A model generated the notes under the pieces. It saw only the letters and a program-made list of their open reading frames with translations, did no database searches and was not told where the DNA came from. DNA of 64,000 bases from Gemmiger sp. An194 (lineage in GTDB: Bacteria > Bacillota > Clostridia > Oscillospirales > Ruminococcaceae): the NCBI RefSeq assembly GCF_002160145.1, contig NZ_NFKA01000004.1:62001-126000 (forward strand). Reading direction: 5' to 3'. Positions 27,503 through 54,864 of the stretch are shown here, piece by piece. The position numbers and the translations under genes are program-made. The number at the start of each line of letters is the position of its first letter. The stretch's first letter is position 1.

Positions 27503-28434
27503 TGCTCACACTGGGCATCGATACCAGCAACTATGCAACCTCTTTGGCCGTGTATGATTCCTGCGCCAAAGAGGTTGTTTGCGATAAAAAGCAATTTTTG
27601 CCCGTCAAGCAGGGGCAGCTTGGCCTGCGTCAGAGCGATGCGCTGTTTCACCACACAGCAGCTCTGCCGGAGCTTTTAAACCAGCTCGGCCAGCAGGTGG
27701 ATCTGCGCCAGATTCAGGCGGTGGGCGTTTCCACCCGCCCGCGGCCGGTGGATGGCTCTTACATGCCCTGCTTCCTTGCAGGCAAAAGCGCGGCCGTGGC
27801 GTTTGCTTCGGCTCGCGGCATCCCTCTGATTGAAACGACCCATCAGCAGGGACACATTGCTGCTGCGCTGTTTGCCACTGGCGAGGAGGATTTGTTTCGG
27901 CGCTCCAGCCTTGTGTTCCATGTTTCCGGCGGAACCACCGATCTTCTGCTTTGCAACGGCTACGACTCAATTCAATGCATCGGCACCAGCAGTGACCTTT
28001 ATGCAGGCCAGGCAGTGGATCGGATCGGGGTAAAGCTTGGATTTGACTTCCCGGCCGGTGCCATGGTCAGTGAGCTTGCCGCAAACTGCACCGAGACGGT
28101 TCGCCCGAAAGTAAGCGTAAAGGGGACAAGCTGCAGTCTGTCCGGCTTGGAAAATCAATGCAACCAGCTTCTGGCACAGGGCAAAACACCTGAATACGTT
28201 TGCCGCTACTGCTTGAACTGTGTAGCCGAAACTGCACTGCGCATGGTAAAGGCATCTCTTGAGGAGTACCCGGGATTGCCGGTGGTTTTTGCCGGAGGAG
28301 TAATGAGCAGCCAGATCATTCGGGAATACGTGACCCGCCGACTGTCCAGTGCGCATTTTGTACCCGGCAAGTTTTCCAGCGATAACGCCATTGGCGTGGC
28401 GTGTATCGTTGCACGGGAGGCAAACCATGGCTGA
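27502..28434 (+). CDS. TsaD/Kae1-like (M22 family) protein
   Basis: 310 residues in the ASKHA fold of TsaD. It keeps the metal-binding pair HQQGH (near residue 114), the glycine-rich VSGGTTDLLL and a C-terminal SDNAIGVAC with the third ligand. It is shorter than typical TsaD (about 340), and this nusB-xseA position in Clostridia usually holds a divergent TsaD paralog rather than the t6A enzyme itself. Function is unknown; a tRNA-modification or metallo-ATPase role is possible. There is no clear ribosome site, so it may rely on coupling to nusB. It overlaps xseA by 8 bp. Confidence 0.8.
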   Translation: MLTLGIDTSNYATSLAVYDSCAKEVVCDKKQFLPVKQGQLGLRQSDALFHHTAALPELLNQLGQQVDLRQIQAVGVSTRPRPVDGSYMPCFLAGKSAAVAFASARGIPLIETTHQQGHIAAALFATGEEDLFRRSSLVFHVSGGTTDLLLCNGYDSIQCIGTSSDLYAGQAVDRIGVKLGFDFPAGAMVSELAANCTETVRPKVSVKGTSCSLSGLENQCNQLLAQGKTPEYVCRYCLNCVAETALRMVKASLEEYPGLPVVFAGGVMSSQIIREYVTRRLSSAHFVPGKFSSDNAIGVACIVAREANHG

Positions 28435-46179: not shown

Positions 46180-46929
46180 ATGTGGACGTATCGAAATGAA
46201 CAGGCATCCAATTCCGCAGCAATCGCAAATTCATCTGCACACACTTCTGCGAAAGCACCTTTCTCCGAAAAGGCATTCCAAAAAGGCTCTCACATCCCGG
46301 TAATGACCATCGAAAAAGCTTCACGTTCTCAACGTGCTATTCGTCCCCAAAAGCGATTCGGAGCGTTTGCGTTTGGGGCCCTGCTGTATCTGACAGGCGT
46401 GCTACTGGGCTCTCTCTGGCGCCCTGATCCAGACAGCTGGCTGTCGAACTATGCCCAGCACTATGTGGAGCTTCAAATCACCCGGCATCTGGAGCACCAG
46501 CTCACTCCGATCTTCTGTGCACAATTTCTAGCATTGCTTACTCAGCTTATGCTGGCCGCTCTGGCCGGCTTCTGTGCGTTCGGCGTCGCACTGCTGCCCG
46601 TACTCATCCTTTTAAAAGGAATTGGGGTAGGCTTTTTCACCGCCTGCCTGTATCTAGAATATGGTCTCGCGCAGGGAGCTGGCATGGAGTTCCTTCTTTT
46701 CTTTTTTCCGCAGCTTCTGGGGCTATTTCTGCTACTCAGTCAAAGTGTCGTTGCGTGGCGCCTTTCCCATGAGCTTCTGGCCGTGTGTATACATAACCGG
46801 GGTACTCGACCCTTAACGGAAAGCAAACGCGTTTTAAGCAGGCTTTTGCTTTGCTGCTGTGCCGCTTTGTTGCCCTGTATTCTTTCCTGTATATGCTCCG
46901 TTCTTTTTGCCGGATTATTCCTGGCCTGA
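46180..46929 (+). CDS. spoIIM: Stage II sporulation protein M-like membrane protein
   Basis: 249 residues: a hydrophilic N-terminus of about 65 residues, then five hydrophobic segments with FAFGALLYLTGVLLGSLW near 70 and LLKGIGVGFFTACLY near 150. SpoIIM forms the SpoIIDMP peptidoglycan-degrading complex that drives engulfment. Bacillus also carries spoIIM close to xerD, as here. The N-terminal extension is longer than usual. AGAGGGA lies 7 nt before ATG 46180. The end overlaps the convergent recombinase by 15 bp. Confidence 0.8.
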   Translation: MWTYRNEQASNSAAIANSSAHTSAKAPFSEKAFQKGSHIPVMTIEKASRSQRAIRPQKRFGAFAFGALLYLTGVLLGSLWRPDPDSWLSNYAQHYVELQITRHLEHQLTPIFCAQFLALLTQLMLAALAGFCAFGVALLPVLILLKGIGVGFFTACLYLEYGLAQGAGMEFLLFFFPQLLGLFLLLSQSVVAWRLSHELLAVCIHNRGTRPLTESKRVLSRLLLCCCAALLPCILSCICSVLFAGLFLA

Positions 46930-48027
46930 CAGCTCATCCTCCAGCTCTTCAAACAGCTCCGGAACCTCCGGCACGTCGGGCTCATCCTCAAGCTCTTCCT
47001 GCGGCATAGGCATATCCTTTTTCTGGGTAAATTCCACACGGGAAAGGGGAGTTGAGCTGGCAGCCGTGCGCAGCTTTTCCGTGTTGATGTGCGTGTAGAT
47101 TTCCGTGGTGGAAACATGCTCGTGGCCCAGAATCTCTTTCAACTCCAGCATATCCACATTACCATGACGGTACATCAGCGTTGCTGCGGTATGCCGTAGT
47201 TTATGCGGTGAATAGCCTTTACCGAAAAGCCCGGCCAGCTTCAGGCAGCGCTCCACGATCTGCTCCACACGCCGCGCACCAATGCGTTTTCCGGTTCTGC
47301 GGGATACAAAAAGCGCATCTTTATCCTGAAGATTCATCAATTTTGCCCGGGCGGCACAATATCGTTCCAGTGCATGAATGCACGCCTGATTCAGATACAC
47401 CAGCCGTTCTTTGTTGCCTTTGCCCACGATTCTGATGGTATCCTCCTGAAAATCACTCATGTTGATGCCCACCAGCTCCACCAAACGCATACCGCAATTG
47501 AGAAAAAGGGTGATGATGCAGTAATCCCGTTCATAAAAGTCGCTTTGTATATTTTTTAACAATTCCATACTTTCTTCCAGCGACAGATACTTCGGTAACG
47601 CGCGCTTGGTTGTGGGTACCGATACATCCTTCGCCGGATCATTGCTCAGCCGGTTGGCCTTAACCGTAAGGAAACGGTAAAGGCTCTTCACGGCGCTGAG
47701 CTTGCGCGCCCGGGCTGCTGGTTCGTTGAGCCGCTCATTTTTCAGAAAATACAGGTATTCATAGATGTCGCTGGTAGTAATGGAGCCGATGAAATCCAAA
47801 TCCAGGCCGGATATATTGATCTCGTCAAAATCCGTATCCGGGGCCAAACCGCGATAACGCATCATGAAACGGAAAAAGGTACGAAGATCAATGTAGTAGC
47901 CATTGACTGTGCGCGGCGAGCGATTCAGAATTGCGCCGAGATAATTCAAAAAGTCCCGAACATCCCGCGGAATATCATCATACGGCGCATGACGATTTGG
48001 ATGAAGCGGATTGATGTAAGTGCTCAT
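46915..48027 (-). CDS. XerC/XerD-type tyrosine recombinase with acidic tail
   Basis: 370 residues: a SAM-like core-binding domain (about 20-125), then a catalytic domain with Arg in NCGMRLVELVG near 186, Lys in VGKGNKERLVYL near 211, HKLRH near 280, and His/Tyr in LGHEHVSTTEIYTH near 305-315. All catalytic residues are present. It probably resolves chromosome dimers, as its spoIIM-side location resembles xerD. The last ~40 residues form an acidic tail (EELEDEPDVPEVPELFEELE) that normal XerC/D lack. ATG 48027 is favoured over upstream TTG 48045; both sites are weak. Confidence 0.88.
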   Translation of the reverse strand: MSTYINPLHPNRHAPYDDIPRDVRDFLNYLGAILNRSPRTVNGYYIDLRTFFRFMMRYRGLAPDTDFDEINISGLDLDFIGSITTSDIYEYLYFLKNERLNEPAARARKLSAVKSLYRFLTVKANRLSNDPAKDVSVPTTKRALPKYLSLEESMELLKNIQSDFYERDYCIITLFLNCGMRLVELVGINMSDFQEDTIRIVGKGNKERLVYLNQACIHALERYCAARAKLMNLQDKDALFVSRRTGKRIGARRVEQIVERCLKLAGLFGKGYSPHKLRHTAATLMYRHGNVDMLELKEILGHEHVSTTEIYTHINTEKLRTAASSTPLSRVEFTQKKDMPMPQEELEDEPDVPEVPELFEELEDELSGQE

Positions 48028-48062
48028 AAGATAATCACATCCCAAAGTAAACTGACCATATT

Positions 48063-48071: not shown

Positions 48072-48208
48072 GAAACATTTGAATTTGTTTTTCATAAAAA
48101 CAATGATTTTGCATCCAATTAATGCAACAGTCTGCAAACGGCCAATCTGAGCGTCGACGGCTCAGAACGGACCTAACCACAAGAAGCACCGCTTTTTCGC
48201 TCCCCTCT

Positions 48209-48236
48209 ATTTCGCTAAATTTGCATTTAGCGAAAT
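48209..48236. repeat. 12-bp inverted repeat in the left flanking repeat
   Basis: ATTTCGCTAAAT and ATTTAGCGAAAT are perfect complements around TTGC. The right arm runs into the 75-bp direct repeat that starts at 48230. Confidence 0.9.
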
Positions 48237-48304
48237 ACTATGTGAGCCAAAAATATGGGCCCCTGCCCTGCATCTCTCGCAAGCTCTGGCCCTTCGCTGG
48301 CTTT
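48230..48304. repeat. Left copy of the 75-bp direct repeat flanking the insertion
   Basis: The first 52 bp (GCGAAATACTATGTGAGCCA onward) are identical to 52157-52208; over 75 bp there are three mismatches. Both copies have the same orientation and sit next to a hairpin whose arms and loop differ. They may be attachment-site products or members of a dispersed repeat family. Confidence 0.9.
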
Positions 48305-48620
48305 GGCCGCCCCTATCGTCGGCCCCCTCATGGTTTCATAATACAGGCCCGTACAGCCGATTGCAACCGCATCCCAGGAAAGAGCGCGAATTGTCCATGA
48401 AATGAGACATTGCTCCATCACGGGCAGATTTTCATTTTTTGACAAACTGCGAAGGCAGCGGGCCGCACGCCTGGAGCCGGGCGGCCCGCGATCGCAGCCG
48501 CAAGCGGGCAGCGAACCGAAGGCAAAAGCCCCCACCCCCCGCCCGCCCCGTGGGGGCGGGTGCGCTGCTCTGGGGCCAGCGCTGGCGGCAGCCGGTGGCC
48601 CGGCGCGGCGGCAAGCCGAT

Positions 48621-48649
48621 TTGACAAACCGCAGCCGGTGCGGTATAAT
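48621..48649 (+). promoter_or_regulatory. Consensus promoter of the predicted short RNA
   Basis: A perfect TTGACA (48621-48626) and perfect TATAAT (48644-48649) are 17 bp apart, the strongest promoter in the window. No coding start with a ribosome site follows before the terminator. Confidence 0.88.
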
Positions 48650-48655
48650 GATGGT

Positions 48656-48722
48656 GCTGCGACGGGGCGGCGCAAGCTGCACCAATGGGAAAGACCCGGG
48701 GCCGAAAGGCTCCGGGTTTTTT
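48656..48722 (+). ncRNA. Predicted ~67-nt small RNA of the element
   Basis: The segment from the predicted start (about 48656) ends at an intrinsic terminator: ACCCGGGGCC (48694-48703), loop GAAA, GGCTCCGGGT (48708-48717), then a T-run to 48722. Upstream, GGTGCTGCG (48653-48661) can pair with CGCA and GCACC (48671-48674, 48679-48683) with an AGCT bulge, but the predicted start falls inside the first arm. The role is unknown; copy-number or rep control is possible. Confidence 0.65.
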
Positions 48723-49043
48723 CGTGTCCGTTTCGCGTAATCTCCCGCCAACTCAGCGCAAGACGGGGGGCCCCTTGCCGCTGCGCGGCAAGCCCTTTCC
48801 CCCCGGACCCCCTTCCCGCCCTGCGCGGGCGTGGCCGCCCGGCGTCGGCCCTTGCGGGCCGATCGGTAGCCCGGCCCACCATTTGGGCCGGGCATAAATG
48901 CTCCGCAGGCCCTGCGGGGCAAAGGTGGGTTGCTCACCGGCGGCCCGGCGCAAGGCCAAGCCGCGCAAAGCGCGGGGGCTGCGTCCGCCTTGCGCAGTGC
49001 CGCCAACTCGCCCGTTTATCTTTTGGGCGGTCGGTGCTCGGCC

Positions 49044-49079
49044 AAAAAAGGCCCCCCGTAGGGTGGTGGGGCCTTTTTT
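49044..49079. terminator. Bidirectional terminator in the element
   Basis: AAAAAAGGCCCC (49044-49055) pairs with GGGGCCTTTTTT (49068-49079). The A-tract and T-tract make it functional in both directions; it is the likely end of the minus-strand rep-int operon. Confidence 0.85.
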
Positions 49080-49254
49080 GCCCTCGGCCCAGCCAGCGCC
49101 CACCCGGTCCCCCGGGCGGGCACTGGCTGGCGTAGCCGCCCCCCGGCCCTGTGCTACGCACCGAGCCGGTCCGGGGGGCTGCGGGCGGCGGGGGCCCCCG
49201 GACCGCCCCACCGCCCTTGCGCTGCGGCGCGGCAATCGTAACCCCGCGCGCTAA

Positions 49255-49286
49255 GGCGGGTGTTTGGCTGCGCCAAGCCACCCGCC
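49255..49286. repeat. Two-tier inverted repeat in the element
   Basis: GGCGGGTG/CACCCGCC forms the outer stem and TTGGC/GCCAA the inner stem around TGC. No T-tract follows. Confidence 0.85.
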
Positions 49287-49551
49287 TGTCCCTCGCTTGC
49301 GCGCGGGTGGGCCGCATACGGCAACGAATGCCAATAAAGGGGGCAAGCCCCCTTTACCCCATCCAACGCCCCCGCAAGCCCCCGCGCGTGCGCTCTCCCA
49401 TTGTCCCCGCCCGTCCGGGGTCAAGGGGCGCGCCCTTTACGCAGCAAGGGCCAAGGCTTACGCCCTGGCCCTTGACCCCTGGTTCCATGCTGTCCGATGC
49501 TCCCGCGCTCGCACCCGAAGAAAACGCACGCGCGAAAGGAGCCCGGAAAAC

Positions 49552-49872
49552 ATGCTCATCCTACCAACCAACCGCCGTCAACTGCTCTGCTACGTGCTGG
49601 CCCTGGATGTGGCCCTCAAAGACCCCAACCTGCCCCCGCAGCGCCGCCAGCTGCTCCGCCGGTACTGCCGCGTCCTGGATGCTATGGCCGTCACCGGCGC
49701 TTTTTCCGGCCAGCCCCCGCCAGCTTGCGGCGGGTCAGCTCGTCCGCCAGCGCGTACAGCATGGTCACCTCGCGGTGGTCCCCGTCGTGGTTCAGCGCGG
49801 CAGCCACCTTGCCCAGGTCCCCGGTGCGCCGAAACTCCTCGACCGCGCCGATTTTCCGGGCGGTGTGCGTAG
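49552..49872 (+). CDS. Possible small protein, overlaps int antisense
   Basis: ATG 49552 has AAAGGAG 10 nt upstream. The first ~50 residues look protein-like (LPTNRRQLLCYVLALDVALK, then LPPQRRQLLRRYCRVLDAM), but beyond about residue 50 the frame lies antisense to the recombinase gene and becomes Pro/Arg-rich. Either a ~50-residue protein was once followed by other sequence, or the frame is fortuitous. I do not recognise it. Confidence 0.35.
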   Translation: MLILPTNRRQLLCYVLALDVALKDPNLPPQRRQLLRRYCRVLDAMAVTGAFSGQPPPACGGSARPPARTAWSPRGGPRRGSARQPPCPGPRCAETPRPRRFSGRCA

Positions 49873-50248
49873 TGATCTGAGCCCCCGCAGGCACTACCCC
49901 GCTGGCCCGGAACAGCCGCGCAGCCCGCACCAGGTCCTTGTAGACCGCGCTCCGGGTCCGGTGCCGCCGCCAGTCCAGCCGCCCCTCGAAGACCCAAACC
50001 CGGCCCGCCTGGGCCAGCATCCGCTCGTACAACTCACGCGGCCAATATACCCGCCTGGTTTTGCCGGTCTTCAGTTCGCGCACCGTCATGCGCTGGCCCC
50101 GCCGCAGCGGCTCGGTTTTCAGCTCCAGCACATCGCTGATGCGCAGCTTGCTTGCCATGCAGCACTCCAGCGCCAGGCGGTTCGGCGGCATCAATGCCGC
50201 GAGTACATGCTCCATGTTGGGCCGGTCAAGCCAGTCCGCACGCCCCAT
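49691..50248 (-). CDS. Minimal tyrosine recombinase (integrase) catalytic domain
   Basis: 185 residues. The order of motifs fits a phage-integrase catalytic domain: Arg in ASKLRISDVLELK near 36, Lys in ELKTGKTRRVYW near 62, the HxxR equivalent HTARK near 130, and His plus Tyr in LNHDGDHREVTMLYA near 153-167. The usual N-terminal core-binding domain is absent, so it is about half the normal length. It is the last gene of the element's operon. It could be a specialised resolvase or integrase, or a decayed one; the motifs look intact. Confidence 0.72.
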   Translation of the reverse strand: MGRADWLDRPNMEHVLAALMPPNRLALECCMASKLRISDVLELKTEPLRRGQRMTVRELKTGKTRRVYWPRELYERMLAQAGRVWVFEGRLDWRRHRTRSAVYKDLVRAARLFRASGVVPAGAQITTHTARKIGAVEEFRRTGDLGKVAAALNHDGDHREVTMLYALADELTRRKLAGAGRKKRR

Positions 50249-50311
50249 TCAGCCCTCGCTCTCCTTTCCTGCTTTTGGTGACTGGTCCAGTGAAACGCAC
50301 TGTTTGGCGCT

Positions 50312-50563
50312 TCATGCTGCGCTGTCCGGGTCCGGTGCCTTTTGACAGCTCGTCAGAAACCCGTGAAAACGCCCCTCGCAAATCGCCAAGGTTTCGCGGG
50401 CGACCCGTTCAGACTCGGGGTCTTTTCTCCACTCCGTAAAGTGCACCATGTAAGCCCAAAGGCAGCAATCCCCAAACAGGCGCAGCCCTTCCCCTCGCAC
50501 CCGGTCTTCCAAATCGTACACCTGGCCCAAAGCCGCAGCAGCATCAAAAATCGGTCGTTCCAT
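50312..50563 (-). CDS. Hypothetical protein (83 aa) of the element
   Basis: ATG 50563 is preceded by AAGGAG. The protein is charged and mostly helical with several aromatics (FGDCCLWAYMVHFTEWRK); no domain is recognised. It lies between two other element genes on the same strand with short gaps, so it probably belongs to the rep-int operon. Confidence 0.65.
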   Translation of the reverse strand: MERPIFDAAAALGQVYDLEDRVRGEGLRLFGDCCLWAYMVHFTEWRKDPESERVARETLAICEGRFHGFLTSCQKAPDPDSAA

Positions 50564-50597
50564 CGTCTTCTCCTTCCGGGGGCGTTGGCCCCCAATA

Positions 50598-50822
50598 TCA
50601 CACAATATCATCAACAAGAACCACCCTCGGGGCCGCCTGGCCCCTCTCCTCGTGGTGTTTCAGCAGCAGCTCCAGCGCGTGCATCCGCAGCGCGGGCGGC
50701 GGCAGCTGGTCCTGCCGCTGCCCGTCCTTGCCGTACACCGGCCAAACCACCTCACCGTCCGCAACGGCCAGCAGCCGCTTCTCAATCTCGGTCCACTCTT
50801 CCAGTTCCTTAACTTCATCCAT
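50598..50822 (-). CDS. Hypothetical acidic protein (74 aa) of the element
   Basis: ATG 50822 is preceded by AAGGAG and overlaps the rep gene's 3' end by 8 bp, indicating coupling. The sequence is helical and acidic at the start (MDEVKELEEWTEIEKRLL) with VVWPVYGKDGQ in the middle. I do not recognise it; a small auxiliary replication or regulatory protein is a guess from position. Confidence 0.65.
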   Translation of the reverse strand: MDEVKELEEWTEIEKRLLAVADGEVVWPVYGKDGQRQDQLPPPALRMHALELLLKHHEERGQAAPRVVLVDDIV

Positions 50823-51768
50823 TTTCTGGTATCTCCTTCCAGGTCCCAGGGCAGCCCGGCGCAGCCGTCTCCGGCCTGCGCTCGGTCCAGCGCCGCAGCT
50901 CCAGCAGCACCTCGCCGAAGGCAGCCCGGTCAAACTCCACCCGCCCGCAAGCCGCCAGCAGCGGCTCCAGCTTTGCACGCTTGCGGCGGCTCAGTTCGCC
51001 CAAGCGCTCCGGCTCCCGCCAGAGCGTGCGCAGGATGAAACGGTCCGTCTCGTTCAGCGCCGCCACCTCAAGGCTCAGCTGCTCCTCGCTGCGTACCCGG
51101 TAAACCGTGGGCCACTCACCGGCCACCCGGTCCGGGGCGCAGTCCGCCCCGTCCAGGGTCAGCTCCAGGCGCGTGAGCAGCTGCTCCAAGCCGCTCTCCC
51201 GGGTCTTGTTGTACAGCTTGTACCGGCCCGGCGCGTTGCGCTGTCCCAGGTACTGGGTCCGGTCCGAAGCGCTCCGGCGCATCTCCTCGTATTGCCGCCC
51301 GTCCTTCACAAGCTCGTACTCCTCGCGGCTCCCCGGAAGGTCCACCGCCAGGTCCCAGCGCTTCACCGTCACGCGCTCATGAGGGCCGCTTGCGTCCCAC
51401 AGCGCGTTGAAGACATACCACAGGGCCTGGCTATGCCCCACCTTGTTGGGGTTCAGCTCCAGCCGTGCCCGGCGCGTGTCCACGCCGCTGGGGCCGTTCA
51501 GCCCCATGCCCAGCCAGAAGGACCGGTCTCCGGGCAGCTCGAAGCTGAATTGCTCCCGAAAGGTCCCCATCTTGTAGCTGGTCCAATGCCGGTACTCCAC
51601 CCAAAGCAGACCGGCCAGCCGGTCAAGCACCCCCTGTCCCGCCCGGTACTTCACAGCGAAGTCCAGGAGTAGCTTGTCAATGCTGTAGGTGCTGCCGTCC
51701 TTCGCCGTGGTTTTCCAGGTGTAGACCAGCGCCCCCAAGGGGGCCTTTTTCTCTTCCTTGATGTACAT
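50815..51768 (-). CDS. Putative replication initiator (Rep_trans-like)
   Basis: 317 residues from ATG 51768. Features resembling the replication-initiation-factor family are KRWDLAVDLP (136-145), a YLGQRNAPGRYKLYNKTRE segment (173-191) and TRLELTL (199-205), which recall rolling-circle initiators of small Gram-positive plasmids. A C-terminal ~100-residue helical, basic region may bind DNA. The catalytic tyrosine cannot be assigned by eye. The start is uncertain: ATG 51768 and TTG 51783 both lack a good site, and a stem-loop overlaps the region. Confidence 0.65.
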   Translation of the reverse strand: MYIKEEKKAPLGALVYTWKTTAKDGSTYSIDKLLLDFAVKYRAGQGVLDRLAGLLWVEYRHWTSYKMGTFREQFSFELPGDRSFWLGMGLNGPSGVDTRRARLELNPNKVGHSQALWYVFNALWDASGPHERVTVKRWDLAVDLPGSREEYELVKDGRQYEEMRRSASDRTQYLGQRNAPGRYKLYNKTRESGLEQLLTRLELTLDGADCAPDRVAGEWPTVYRVRSEEQLSLEVAALNETDRFILRTLWREPERLGELSRRKRAKLEPLLAACGRVEFDRAAFGEVLLELRRWTERRPETAAPGCPGTWKEIPENG

Positions 51769-51778
51769 TTGTACACAA

Positions 51779-51807
51779 GACAAGCCCTATTAGATATTGG
51801 GCTTGTC
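51779..51807. repeat. 9-bp inverted repeat between the 76-aa gene and rep
   Basis: GACAAGCCC (51779-51787) and GGGCTTGTC (51799-51807) flank an 11-nt loop holding the upstream gene's stop codon. It ends 11 bp before the rep ATG, so it could couple or restrict rep translation. Confidence 0.85.
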
Positions 51808-52020
51808 CGGCCAAATCAGGCGGGGGCGGAGCCGTCCATCCCGCTCAGTGAGTCCCACCTGCACAACATCACCGGCAGCACACTCCCGGTTCGAATACAG
51901 GTAGCCCACGTGCCCCTGTTCATCGGCCATGTAGACCCGCCACATGACGGTATCTTTGCGGCCCGGCTCCTTTGCGCGGAACACCTCTCGGCTCACACTC
52001 AGCACAGTTTTCTCCATCAT
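51790..52020 (-). CDS. Hypothetical protein (76 aa), first gene of the element operon
   Basis: ATG 52020 has AAAGGTG 6 nt upstream. The predicted small beta-rich protein contains VMWRVYMADEQGHVGYLYS and ends RLRPRLIWPDKPNI. No domain is recognised. Its place ahead of rep suggests a replication-associated or regulatory role, but that is inference only. Confidence 0.65.
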   Translation of the reverse strand: MMEKTVLSVSREVFRAKEPGRKDTVMWRVYMADEQGHVGYLYSNRECAAGDVVQVGLTERDGRLRPRLIWPDKPNI

Positions 52021-52043
52021 AGCGATCACCTTTCTGGGGTATG

Positions 52044-52070
52044 AAAAAACCCCCTCAAATTCTGAGGGGG
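52044..52070 (-). terminator. Minus-strand terminator just upstream of the element operon
   Basis: CCCCCTCA/TGAGGGGG with a GAATT loop is followed on the minus strand by TTTTTT. It stands 24 bp upstream of the first operon start, so it either ends transcripts from the radA side or acts as an attenuator. Confidence 0.85.
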
Positions 52071-52156
52071 GTAACGCTATGGAGACTGGCGTACCGTATT
52101 TCCCTAAATCGTCCTTTTTGCAAAGCGCGGCGCGCTTCGCAAAAGTCCTGTATTTT

Positions 52157-52231
52157 GCGAAATACTATGTGAGCCAAAAATATGGGCCCCTGCCCTGCAT
52201 CTCTCGCAGGCTCTGGCCCGTCGCTGTCTTT
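52157..52231. repeat. Right copy of the 75-bp direct repeat
   Basis: It matches 48230-48304 at 72 of 75 positions. Next to it lies an imperfect inverted repeat, TTTTGCAAAGCGC/GCGCTTCGCAAAA (near 52117-52144), unlike the TTGC-loop palindrome of the left copy. The minus strand can encode a 60-residue frame containing PARDAGQGPIFLAHIVFR, truncated in the left copy; I do not treat it as a gene. Confidence 0.9.
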
Positions 52232-52330: not shown

Positions 52331-53734
52331 TTATTTAATTGCCTGAATGGCATCCCGGATATACGAAACGCCGACCAGCTCCATATCCGAAAACTCGCTG
52401 AGCTCCAGCTGCTTCAAGCTGTGCTTCGGCACGATGGCTTTTGTGAAGCCGATTCGCTGTGCCTCTCTCAGCCGGTTTTCCAGAAACGTTACGTTGCGGA
52501 TTTCTCCGGCCAGACCAACCTCGCCGATGGCGATGGTCTTGTCCCCGATGGGCTTGTCCATCAGCGCCGAAGCCATTGCCAGACAGACCGCAAGATCACA
52601 GGCCGTTTCATTCAGATCCAAACCGCCCACAATATTGATGTAGACGTCCAGATTCGCAAAGAAGTACCCTGCCCGCTTTTCCAGTACCGCAAGCAACAGA
52701 TTTGTCCGGTTGAAATCAAAGCCACTGGCGGCACGGCGCGGCGTGCCGAATCCGCTTTTCGTTACAAGGGCCTGTACCTCGCTCAGAATGGGCCTGGTGC
52801 CTTCCATGGTACAGGCAACGCAGTTTCCGCTGATGCCCAACGGACGGCCATCCAGAAGCAGCTGAGAGGGGTTCTCGATCTCAGTCAGACCGGTTCCCGT
52901 CATATCAAACATACCGATCTCGTTAGTGGAGCCATAGCGGTTTTTTACGCCCCGCAGAATTCGATACGGAAGGGTCTTATCCCCTTCGAAATATAGCACG
53001 GTATCCACGATGTGTTCCATGACCTTGGGGCCTGCAATTGCGCCATCCTTGTTTACGTGACCCACAATGAAAGTCGGGATCTCGCAGCTCTTTGCCACAG
53101 CCAGCAATCTGGCGGAGCATTCCTTCACCTGAGAAACACTGCCCGCAGACGAAGATACATCTGAGCAGTGCATTGTCTGGATGGAGTCGATCACCACCAG
53201 ATCCGGACGCATCTGTTCGATCAGCCCACAAATCTCATCAATCTCTGTCTCTGCCACCAGACTGATGTTTTCCTGGGCAACACGCAGCCGGTTGGCACGC
53301 AGCTTGATCTGGCGGGTGGATTCCTCGCCGGTCACATACAAAACATGGTGGCTGCCAGAAATCGCACCGCACAGCTGCAGGAGCAAAGTGGATTTACCCG
53401 CGCCGGGCTCACCGCCCAGCAGAACCACACTGCCCAGAACGATACCACCGCCCAGAACCCGGTCCAGCTCATGAATTCCGGTTACAATGCGGCTTTTTTC
53501 CTCATCGGTGCTGATATCCGCCAGGCGGTCCGCCTTGAGGGAGGTTTGTCCCTGCACACGGCCGGTCGCCACACTTGCGCTTCGCTTTGACGCTGTGGAT
53601 TTGCTTTCCACCATGACCACATCCTCGGTCATGGTATTCCATTCACCGCAGGAGGGGCAGCGCCCCATCCAGCGGGGACTGGTTTCCCCACAGTTGGAGC
53701 AGACATAAATGGATTTCAGTTTACCATCCTTCAT
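52331..53734 (-). CDS. radA: DNA repair protein RadA (Sms)
   Basis: 467 residues: N-terminal C4 zinc finger (CSNCGETSPRWMGRCPSC), Walker A GGEPGAGKST near 97, the RadA motif as KNRYGS near 257 (consensus KNRFGS), and a C-terminal Lon-protease-like domain ending near QLELSEF. RadA is a DnaB-like helicase that promotes branch migration in recombination. It follows comEB by 21 bp. Its 3' side faces the integrated element. Confidence 0.97.
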   Translation of the reverse strand: MKDGKLKSIYVCSNCGETSPRWMGRCPSCGEWNTMTEDVVMVESKSTASKRSASVATGRVQGQTSLKADRLADISTDEEKSRIVTGIHELDRVLGGGIVLGSVVLLGGEPGAGKSTLLLQLCGAISGSHHVLYVTGEESTRQIKLRANRLRVAQENISLVAETEIDEICGLIEQMRPDLVVIDSIQTMHCSDVSSSAGSVSQVKECSARLLAVAKSCEIPTFIVGHVNKDGAIAGPKVMEHIVDTVLYFEGDKTLPYRILRGVKNRYGSTNEIGMFDMTGTGLTEIENPSQLLLDGRPLGISGNCVACTMEGTRPILSEVQALVTKSGFGTPRRAASGFDFNRTNLLLAVLEKRAGYFFANLDVYINIVGGLDLNETACDLAVCLAMASALMDKPIGDKTIAIGEVGLAGEIRNVTFLENRLREAQRIGFTKAIVPKHSLKQLELSEFSDMELVGVSYIRDAIQAIK

Positions 53735-54375: not shown

Positions 54376-54450
54376 TGGAGGTGCTGACCAGATTTGAACT
54401 GGTGAATGAAGGTTTTGCAGACCTTTGCCTTACCACTTGGCCACAGCACC
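54376..54450 (-). tRNA. tRNA-Cys (GCA)
   Basis: 75 nt with encoded CCA; acceptor GGTGCTG/CAGCACC; anticodon loop CTGCAAA gives GCA. Last gene of the cluster. Confidence 0.95.
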
Positions 54451-54457
54451 AAAAAAA

Positions 54458-54533
54458 TGGAGCGGCTTACGAGGCTCGAACTCGCTACCTCCACCTTGGC
54501 AAGGTGGCGCTCTACCAGATGAGCTAAAGCCGC
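54458..54533 (-). tRNA. tRNA-Gly (GCC), copy 1
   Basis: 76 nt with encoded CCA; acceptor GCGGCTT/AAGCCGC; anticodon loop TTGCCAA gives GCC. Identical to the copy at 54789-54864 within an 86-bp repeat. Confidence 0.95.
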
Positions 54534-54540
54534 TTATAAA

Positions 54541-54616
54541 TGGTGCCTCCGATCGGAATCGAACCAATGACACGGGGATTTTCAGTCCCCTGCTCTACCA
54601 ACTGAGCTACAGAGGC
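54541..54616 (-). tRNA. tRNA-Phe (GAA)
   Basis: 76 nt with encoded CCA; acceptor GCCTCTG/CGGAGGC with one wobble; loop CTGAAAA gives anticodon GAA. Confidence 0.95.
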
Positions 54617-54621
54617 AAAAT

Positions 54622-54698
54622 TGGCGACCCGGATGGGGCTCGAACCCACGACCTCTAGCGTGACAGGCTAGCGTTCTAACCAACTGAACTACCGGGCC
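54622..54698 (-). tRNA. tRNA-Asp (GTC)
   Basis: 77 nt with encoded CCA; acceptor GGCCCGG/CCGGGTC; loop CTGTCAC gives anticodon GTC; discriminator G73 is the aspartate identity base. Confidence 0.95.
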
Positions 54699-54701
54699 AC
54701 A

Positions 54702-54777
54702 TGGTGGAAGTTACAGGGCTCGAACCTGTGACCCTCTGCTTGTAAGGCAGATGCTCTCCCAGCTGAGCTAAACTTCC
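54702..54777 (-). tRNA. tRNA-Val (TAC)
   Basis: 76 nt with encoded CCA; acceptor GGAAGTT/AACTTCC; loop CTTACAA gives anticodon TAC. Confidence 0.95.
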
Positions 54778-54788
54778 AGACAAAAAAA

Positions 54789-54864
54789 TGGAGCGGCTTA
54801 CGAGGCTCGAACTCGCTACCTCCACCTTGGCAAGGTGGCGCTCTACCAGATGAGCTAAAGCCGC
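54789..54864 (-). tRNA. tRNA-Gly (GCC), copy 2
   Basis: Same sequence as 54458-54533. It is the first gene after the cluster promoter. Confidence 0.95.

Follow-up and report, generated by a model that had tools for sequence, protein, structure and literature searches.

A compact Rep-plus-recombinase block, probably an integrated minimal rolling-circle plasmid, at the dif site of a single-Xer gut bacterium

Several described elements integrate at dif, the site of Xer recombination, where a bacterium parts the two copies of its chromosome. LME-1 of Legionella pneumophila uses a single-recombinase system (XerL/dif), carries a dif mimic of its own and, once integrated, is flanked by an intact dif and, at its other end, a modified one; the modified downstream dif was shown experimentally to lower excision (PMC9765430). 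CTX-phi, TLC-phi and RS1 of Vibrio cholerae are rolling-circle replicons at dif with paired, inverted and foldable attP sites, and they form arrays of satellites and filamentous phages (PMC5357621); most such vibriophages are reported to lack an integrase (PMC4246890). The XerS/difSL system of streptococci and the XerH/difH system of epsilonproteobacteria each consist of one Xer gene and a dif-like site, the XerS gene being linked to its site (PMC5357621). Here, we analyse a window of 64,000 nucleotides from Gemmiger sp. An194 (contig NZ_NFKA01000004.1, positions 62,001 to 126,000) in which a GC-rich block of 3.9 kb, encoding a replication initiator (Rep) and a tyrosine recombinase reduced to its catalytic domain (Int), lies between a XerC/D-like gene and radA. 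The block is probably a minimal plasmid of the rolling-circle type that has integrated at the dif of a single-Xer bacterium, akin to the integrative mobile elements exploiting Xer (IMEXs).

The locus differs from each of these precedents. LME-1, likened here by description only, belongs to a different phylum; the present element adds its own Int and a paired attP capable of folding. The Vibrio elements have a two-recombinase XerCD host, and the block has no virion genes or known helper. The likeness to XerS/difSL and XerH/difH is one of arrangement, and the window's Xer scores 150 bits against the 267-bit cut-off of the XerS model. Each ingredient has a precedent, in IMEXs, single-Xer systems or rolling-circle replication plasmids, and a literature search limited to open-licence full texts found no account of their combination, in which exchangeable Reps accompany a half-size recombinase at a single-Xer dif.

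A preliminary description made from the sequence alone had drawn the block as an insertion between long direct repeats. These are indeed present, as copies of 83 nt with 94% identity spaced 3927 apart, and their 75-bp core (96% identical) occurs only twice in the 3.07-Mb assembly, so that the fear of a repeat scattered elsewhere did not materialise. The described shift in composition (GC 0.60–0.76 inside the block vs 0.43–0.59 in the displayed flanks) was likewise found, and open reading frame (ORF) positions agree with the described gene order: XerC/D-like gene (−), integrase (−), two small ORFs, Rep (−), a 79-aa ORF (−) and radA (−). What had escaped notice is a perfect 30-nt palindrome, TATTTCGCTAAATTTGCATTTAGCGAAATA, which contains the start of the left repeat. 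Our analysis adds that the XerC/D-like neighbour is very probably the single Xer of the host and the insertion point its dif.

We assign the palindrome, with high confidence, to a single-recombinase Xer system as its dif. By BLAST and inspection, a palindrome of the TATTTCGCTAAATTTGCATTTAGCGAAATA type stands upstream of the XerC-like gene in nearly all of 28 members of the family (Ruminococcaceae); several show compensated arm changes (e.g. AACCGCACTAAATTTTTATTTAGTGCGGTT in L029), and in three (L014, L021 and L022) the orientation is inverted. A pattern search recovered it from 154 of 298 family genomes, usually as a single copy. Because two near-complete relatives have a GC skew that switches from positive to negative there (G026, +0.042 to −0.057 at ~2.049 Mb; G056, +0.073 to −0.052 at ~682.5 kb), the palindrome is very probably the chromosomal dif. 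The adjoining Xer, with orthologues in 45 of 61 family genomes, is the best match to the XerD model in its genome (175 bits; next 92) and is matched, below cut-off, by the XerC, XerD, XerS and XerA NCBIfam models alike. No B. subtilis-type dif was found in six genomes with up to 3 mismatches, and the literature searched describes no dif or single Xer for this family of gut anaerobes, a large one for which candidates for both are now supplied. Separately, a second dif-like palindrome with two mismatches (TTTCGTCAAACAGCTATTTAGCGAAA) is identical in the window's own genome (G000:C15:21966) and in G004:C45:18367. The Xer gene also overlaps a membrane-protein ORF tail to tail (window 46180–46929); a similar ORF follows Xer in L068, and the pair may be conserved.

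Relatives of the window's genome hold both empty and occupied versions of the site. Three species of its genus (G001, G003 and G004) have Xer, dif and radA without the block, the outcome that the preliminary description had named as a check. The site is occupied in Candidatus Fournierella merdavium (G225) and Ca. F. merdipullorum (G321), which share a genus other than the window's and whose elements are 63–65% (Rep), 76% (Int) and 62% (orf79, the 79-aa protein) identical to the block. Their genus-mates G157 and G063 are empty; a further one, G278, is without Rep and Int and is rearranged on the radA side. The junctions in G225 and G321 locate the insertion at dif: on the Xer side, host CTCCCCTNAATTTCGCTAAATTTTTATTTAGCGAAA gives way to the element (N being T in G225, with CTCTA here in G321), while on the radA side the element's GTATTTCGCTAAACCAAGGATTATTTAGCGAAA is followed in G321 by the host flank TTGCATCCAGTGAAATCAGTATACC, as in G063. 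What remains after insertion is an intact dif beside Xer and, beside radA, a dif-like site with a longer, altered centre. The window's right-hand site, CTTCGCAAAA-GTCCTGTA-TTTTGCGAAA, has the same arrangement; such centres measure 8–10 nt in the window, G225 and G321 and 9 nt in the G194 element, as against 6 in dif, and the radA-side site is predicted to be defective. The block thereby resembles the IMEXs in its location at dif, in a dif-like attP that leaves an intact and an altered dif after insertion, and in the empty dif of relatives.

The features of the locus are as follows (window coordinates).
46915..48045, − strand: host Xer tyrosine recombinase, 376 aa, outside the element and adjoining dif (PF00589, 8e-34)
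48208..48237, no strand: very probable dif (attL), perfect 30-nt palindrome TATTTCGCTAAATTTGCATTTAGCGAAATA; 0 expected by chance in the window
48222..48304, no strand: left direct repeat, comprising the right dif arm and a flank that resembles the post-dif host sequence of the empty sites in G001 and G003
48305..49551, no strand: structured GC-rich region without conserved ORFs
48526..48562, no strand: GC-rich hairpin conserved across elements with differing Rep families, a candidate single-strand origin or packaging signal
49552..49872, + strand: small ORF (MLILPTNRRQLLCYVLALDVALK...), its N-terminal ~50 aa conserved in G225 and G321
49691..50248, − strand: Int, 185-aa catalytic-domain-only tyrosine recombinase (PF00589, 2e-9)
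50312..50563, − strand: small ORF, 83 aa from MERPIF; a similar ORF in the same place in G321, judged by eye
50598..50822, − strand: small ORF, 74 aa, no match in relatives
50815..51783, − strand: Rep, predicted pT181/Rep_trans-type rolling-circle initiator with invariant Y191
51790..52029, − strand: orf79, conserved 79-aa small protein (62% in G225 and G321, 53% in G194)
52097..52162, no strand: two inverted dif-like copies (52097–52127 and 52135–52162) with a predicted single-strand fold, the second being attR, CTTCGCAAAA-GTCCTGTA-TTTTGCGAAA
52149..52231, no strand: right direct repeat, then host sequence up to radA, this continuation compared with empty sites
52331–53734, − strand: radA

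The long repeat that had been described as bounding the block is in part sequence of the host's dif flank: the G225 and G321 elements share, at their two ends, only the ~14-bp dif arm, and the window's repeats run on for ~65 bp beyond it, into sequence like the host flank of G001 and G003, an extension that may be captured host flank. The earlier inventory of small proteins also stands in part, since the ORFs it listed are present but the conserved + strand ORF at 49552–49872 had been overlooked. An Rfam scan matched no RNA family, and the ORF list together with Pfam and PHROG scans of the block gave no Zot/pI ATPase or coat gene. No relaxase or conjugation domain appeared in domain scans of the block's proteins; Rep_trans proteins are able to act as MobT-type relaxases.

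Adjacent inverted dif-like copies occupy the right end of four elements (those of the window, G225, G321 and G194). The joined attP is predicted to form a single-strand hairpin in which the outer and inner dif arms pair and the centre stays unpaired, with energies of −24.9 kcal/mol in G225 (z −7.6), −24.4 in G321 (z −8.3), −18.4 for the bottom strand of the window (z −4.2) and −21.4 in G194 (folded as the integrated attR). By folding prediction, these elements have the inverted dif-like pair, single-strand fold and mismatched centre of a CTX-phi-type attP. The palindromes themselves supply part of the energy, and the fold is for this reason compatible with, and not proof of, single-strand integration.

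The initiator had been called Rep_trans-like, and this holds even though the single Rep sequence has no Pfam or PHROG match and retrieved nothing from plasmids or from genome and viral contigs. A profile search found three genome loci and none among viral contigs, and the five-member profile matches RepDE, a pT181-type initiator, over the catalytic region (2.4e-12). Folding of the single sequence gave a low predicted local distance difference test score (pLDDT 38); an AlphaFold model from four sequences reached pLDDT 59 with a predicted template modelling score of 0.60, and with this model the sole Foldseek hits below 0.001 (1.6e-8) were RepDE and the Geobacillus initiator 4cij. Y191 is invariant and the YNK motif conserved. 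On this profile and model evidence, Rep is a predicted divergent initiator of the pT181 type, sharing fold and motif with RepC/RepD/RepE but highly divergent from them (Foldseek, 17–18% identity) and borne on an integrated element. Its nearest relatives outside such elements are two filamentous-phage Reps; one (42–43% identity) comes from an Angelakisella inovirus lying at the same Xer/dif, the other (~33%) from a 5347-bp contig (L184) with a Zot-like gene.

A profile check confirmed the tyrosine recombinase domain of Int, which is without the N-terminal DNA-binding domain usual in integrases; a PDB sequence search gave no match. Relatives at E≤1e-12 were found in 11 of 397 family genomes, and R36, K60, H128, R131, H154 and Y165 are invariant among the 11 aligned proteins (one per genome). 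A Rep adjoins Int in every case: the window type in the window's genome, G225 and G321, Rep_OBD in G194, and the G2P type (PF23343) in G351, G293, G333, G356, G246, G161 and G110. The neighbourhoods of these 11 genomes showed no virion genes inside the Int mini-elements. Int, Xer and dif share one contig in 7 of the 11 (G000, G225, G321, G194, G351, G293 and G161), and the G246 locus is divided over contigs. On one of these (L181, G246:C161) the conserved hairpin occurs at 1–20 and 1584–1603, flanking a single int-Rep pair, which suggests tandem units of ~1.6 kb.

Free circles carry related recombinases. Only seven plasmid records matched Int at 1e-8, all circular, from uncultured bacteria, 2.2–3.8 kb long and 40–52% identical in Int, which adjoins a plasmid Rep; Pfam placed three of the five Reps tested in Rep_1, one in Rep_OBD and one in RepL, unlike that of the window. 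From their names, the pRGI/pRGF records (HG796xxx) appear to be those of a rat-caecum mobilome in which 83 phage-integrase genes were counted among 616 circular sequences (PMC3913684). By sequence comparison, Int belongs to a family of catalytic-only recombinases on minimal plasmids, and the dif locus offers a chromosomal home for such orphan circles of gut mobilomes. The preliminary proposal of an autonomously replicating, integrating minimal element thus gains support from the empty sites, the homologues at the same site and the Int relatives that accompany Reps on circles of 2.2–3.8 kb. The hairpin at 48526–48562 recurs in G225, G321, G194 and G246, across three Rep families, and in similar form on HG796380.1; as it does not follow the type of Rep, it probably does not serve as the nick site and is a candidate single-strand origin or packaging signal.

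Filamentous phages use the same docking site. Inoviruses without this Int occupy the dif in L068, L070/L092 and L103, and in G161, G333 and G110 a mini-element abuts an inovirus that has its own Rep and a Zot-like gene. In the last genome (L183, G110:C14:225000-244000), two tandem 2544-bp Rep+Int units, joined at the palindrome TTTAACTCAG-GTTCC-CTGAGTTATA, stand directly before the phage as in an RS1/CTX array, and an assembly gap at the end suggests that further units are likely. The Angelakisella prophage at Xer/dif (L070/L071, G267:C191) encodes two large secreted-type proteins, one with MucBP domains, and its contig has a further dif-like site at 27710, 16.6 kb away on the Xer side. L184 (G430:C8) is a probable complete circular inovirus genome from a different family of the same order. 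Its assembly is of high quality; it has a 121-bp terminal repeat and encodes membrane proteins and a Zot-like ATPase besides a Rep related to the window's.

A block without virion genes at a site in common with filamentous phages could be a phage satellite, with its own Rep and dif integration but packaged by a helper inovirus as TLC-phi and RS1 are. We consider this unlikely. The kinship of its Rep with inovirus Reps, the mini-elements next to full inoviruses (including the tandem units of 2.5 kb) and the hairpin common to elements with different Reps would all fit, but packaging is not needed to explain the adjacency of elements that have a target site in common, the hairpin may instead act as a single-strand origin, and Int relatives are found on plasmids with ordinary plasmid Reps. 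Two queries, one of them a Pfam Zot model that missed the known Zot-like gene of G267, found no such gene in the window's genome (hence no helper phage there), in G225 or in G321, and none across the 11 genomes beyond G267's own prophage. An inovirus prophage decayed through loss of the genes for coat, Zot and adsorption would likewise explain the Rep and the site; this reading is very improbable given the same compact, intact gene set in two Fournierella genomes (62–76% identity), the existence of free circles of the same size and the failure to find a close Int relative among IMG/VR viral contigs, including inovirus contigs. An artefact of assembly or rearrangement as the source of the repeats and insertion has nothing to commend it beyond the draft status of the assembly, and can be practically dismissed, since assemblies made independently for two genera agree in architecture.

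Rather doubtful, too, is integration by Int alone, with dif merely as attachment site and the host Xer uninvolved. Int does have a full catalytic set and accompanies dif-located elements of three Rep families, but inoviruses without it sit at the same dif (L070, L103 and L068), the attP arms copy the dif arms conserved with Xer, and Int is without the usual N-terminal domain. We infer instead that catalysis of the crossover is the work of the host Xer and not of Int alone. In the integrated-plasmid reading, Rep would copy the circle by rolling-circle replication and attP, either double-stranded or folded as a single strand in the manner of CTX-phi, would recombine with the dif beside Xer; single-stranded DNA may be the integration substrate. 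Int may assist integration, excision or multimer resolution, possibly as a second catalytic partner. Insertion would restore an intact dif at the Xer-gene side and leave a defective dif-like site at the radA side; with this pair of sites, we propose, the host keeps dimer resolution and the element is therefore stably held.

Several observations weigh against integration of a minimal plasmid at dif. All support is comparative, and neither a junction read nor excision was seen in this strain. The confidence of the Rep model is modest (pLDDT 59), the window's attP fold is weaker than those of its relatives, with separate hairpins favoured on the top strand, and a simple dif crossover leaves the host-like repeat extension unexplained. 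On the window's own contig the positive-to-negative skew change is gradual and starts ~10 kb left of dif. The Int elements of G110, G333 and G356 are not located by Xer, and no dif-like palindrome was found next to Xer in those genomes. Finally, an arm scan recognised no TTTCGCTAAA-type site or dif-like arm in the seven free plasmids, so that Int on these circles may do something else, for instance resolve multimers.

The comparisons show this dif to be a docking site common to filamentous phages and minimal Rep+Int plasmids. How elements enter a palindromic dif served by one recombinase, and what Int contributes without an N-terminal domain, become testable questions, and these genomes are a place to seek filamentous-phage satellites outside Vibrio. 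The most far-reaching version, an undescribed class of minimal dif-docking elements in gut Oscillospirales that combine one catalytic-only recombinase with interchangeable rolling-circle Reps, integrate single-stranded DNA at the host dif by the joint action of host Xer and the element's half-size recombinase and spread as satellites of co-resident filamentous phages, we regard as a long shot.

Ordinary tRNA-type integration was rejected, the nearest tRNAs lying ~2 kb past the right end with none overlapping the repeats; a cluster of six tRNAs (Cys, Gly, Phe, Asp, Val and Gly) is found beyond radA at window 54376–54864. Several viral contigs with the TTTCGCTAAA palindrome were set aside as dif users, since they proved to belong to tailed phages in which it lies close to terminase genes: such IMG/VR contigs (L094–L109) have a TTTCGCTAAA..TTTAGCGAAA palindrome there, possibly a dif mimic or packaging site.

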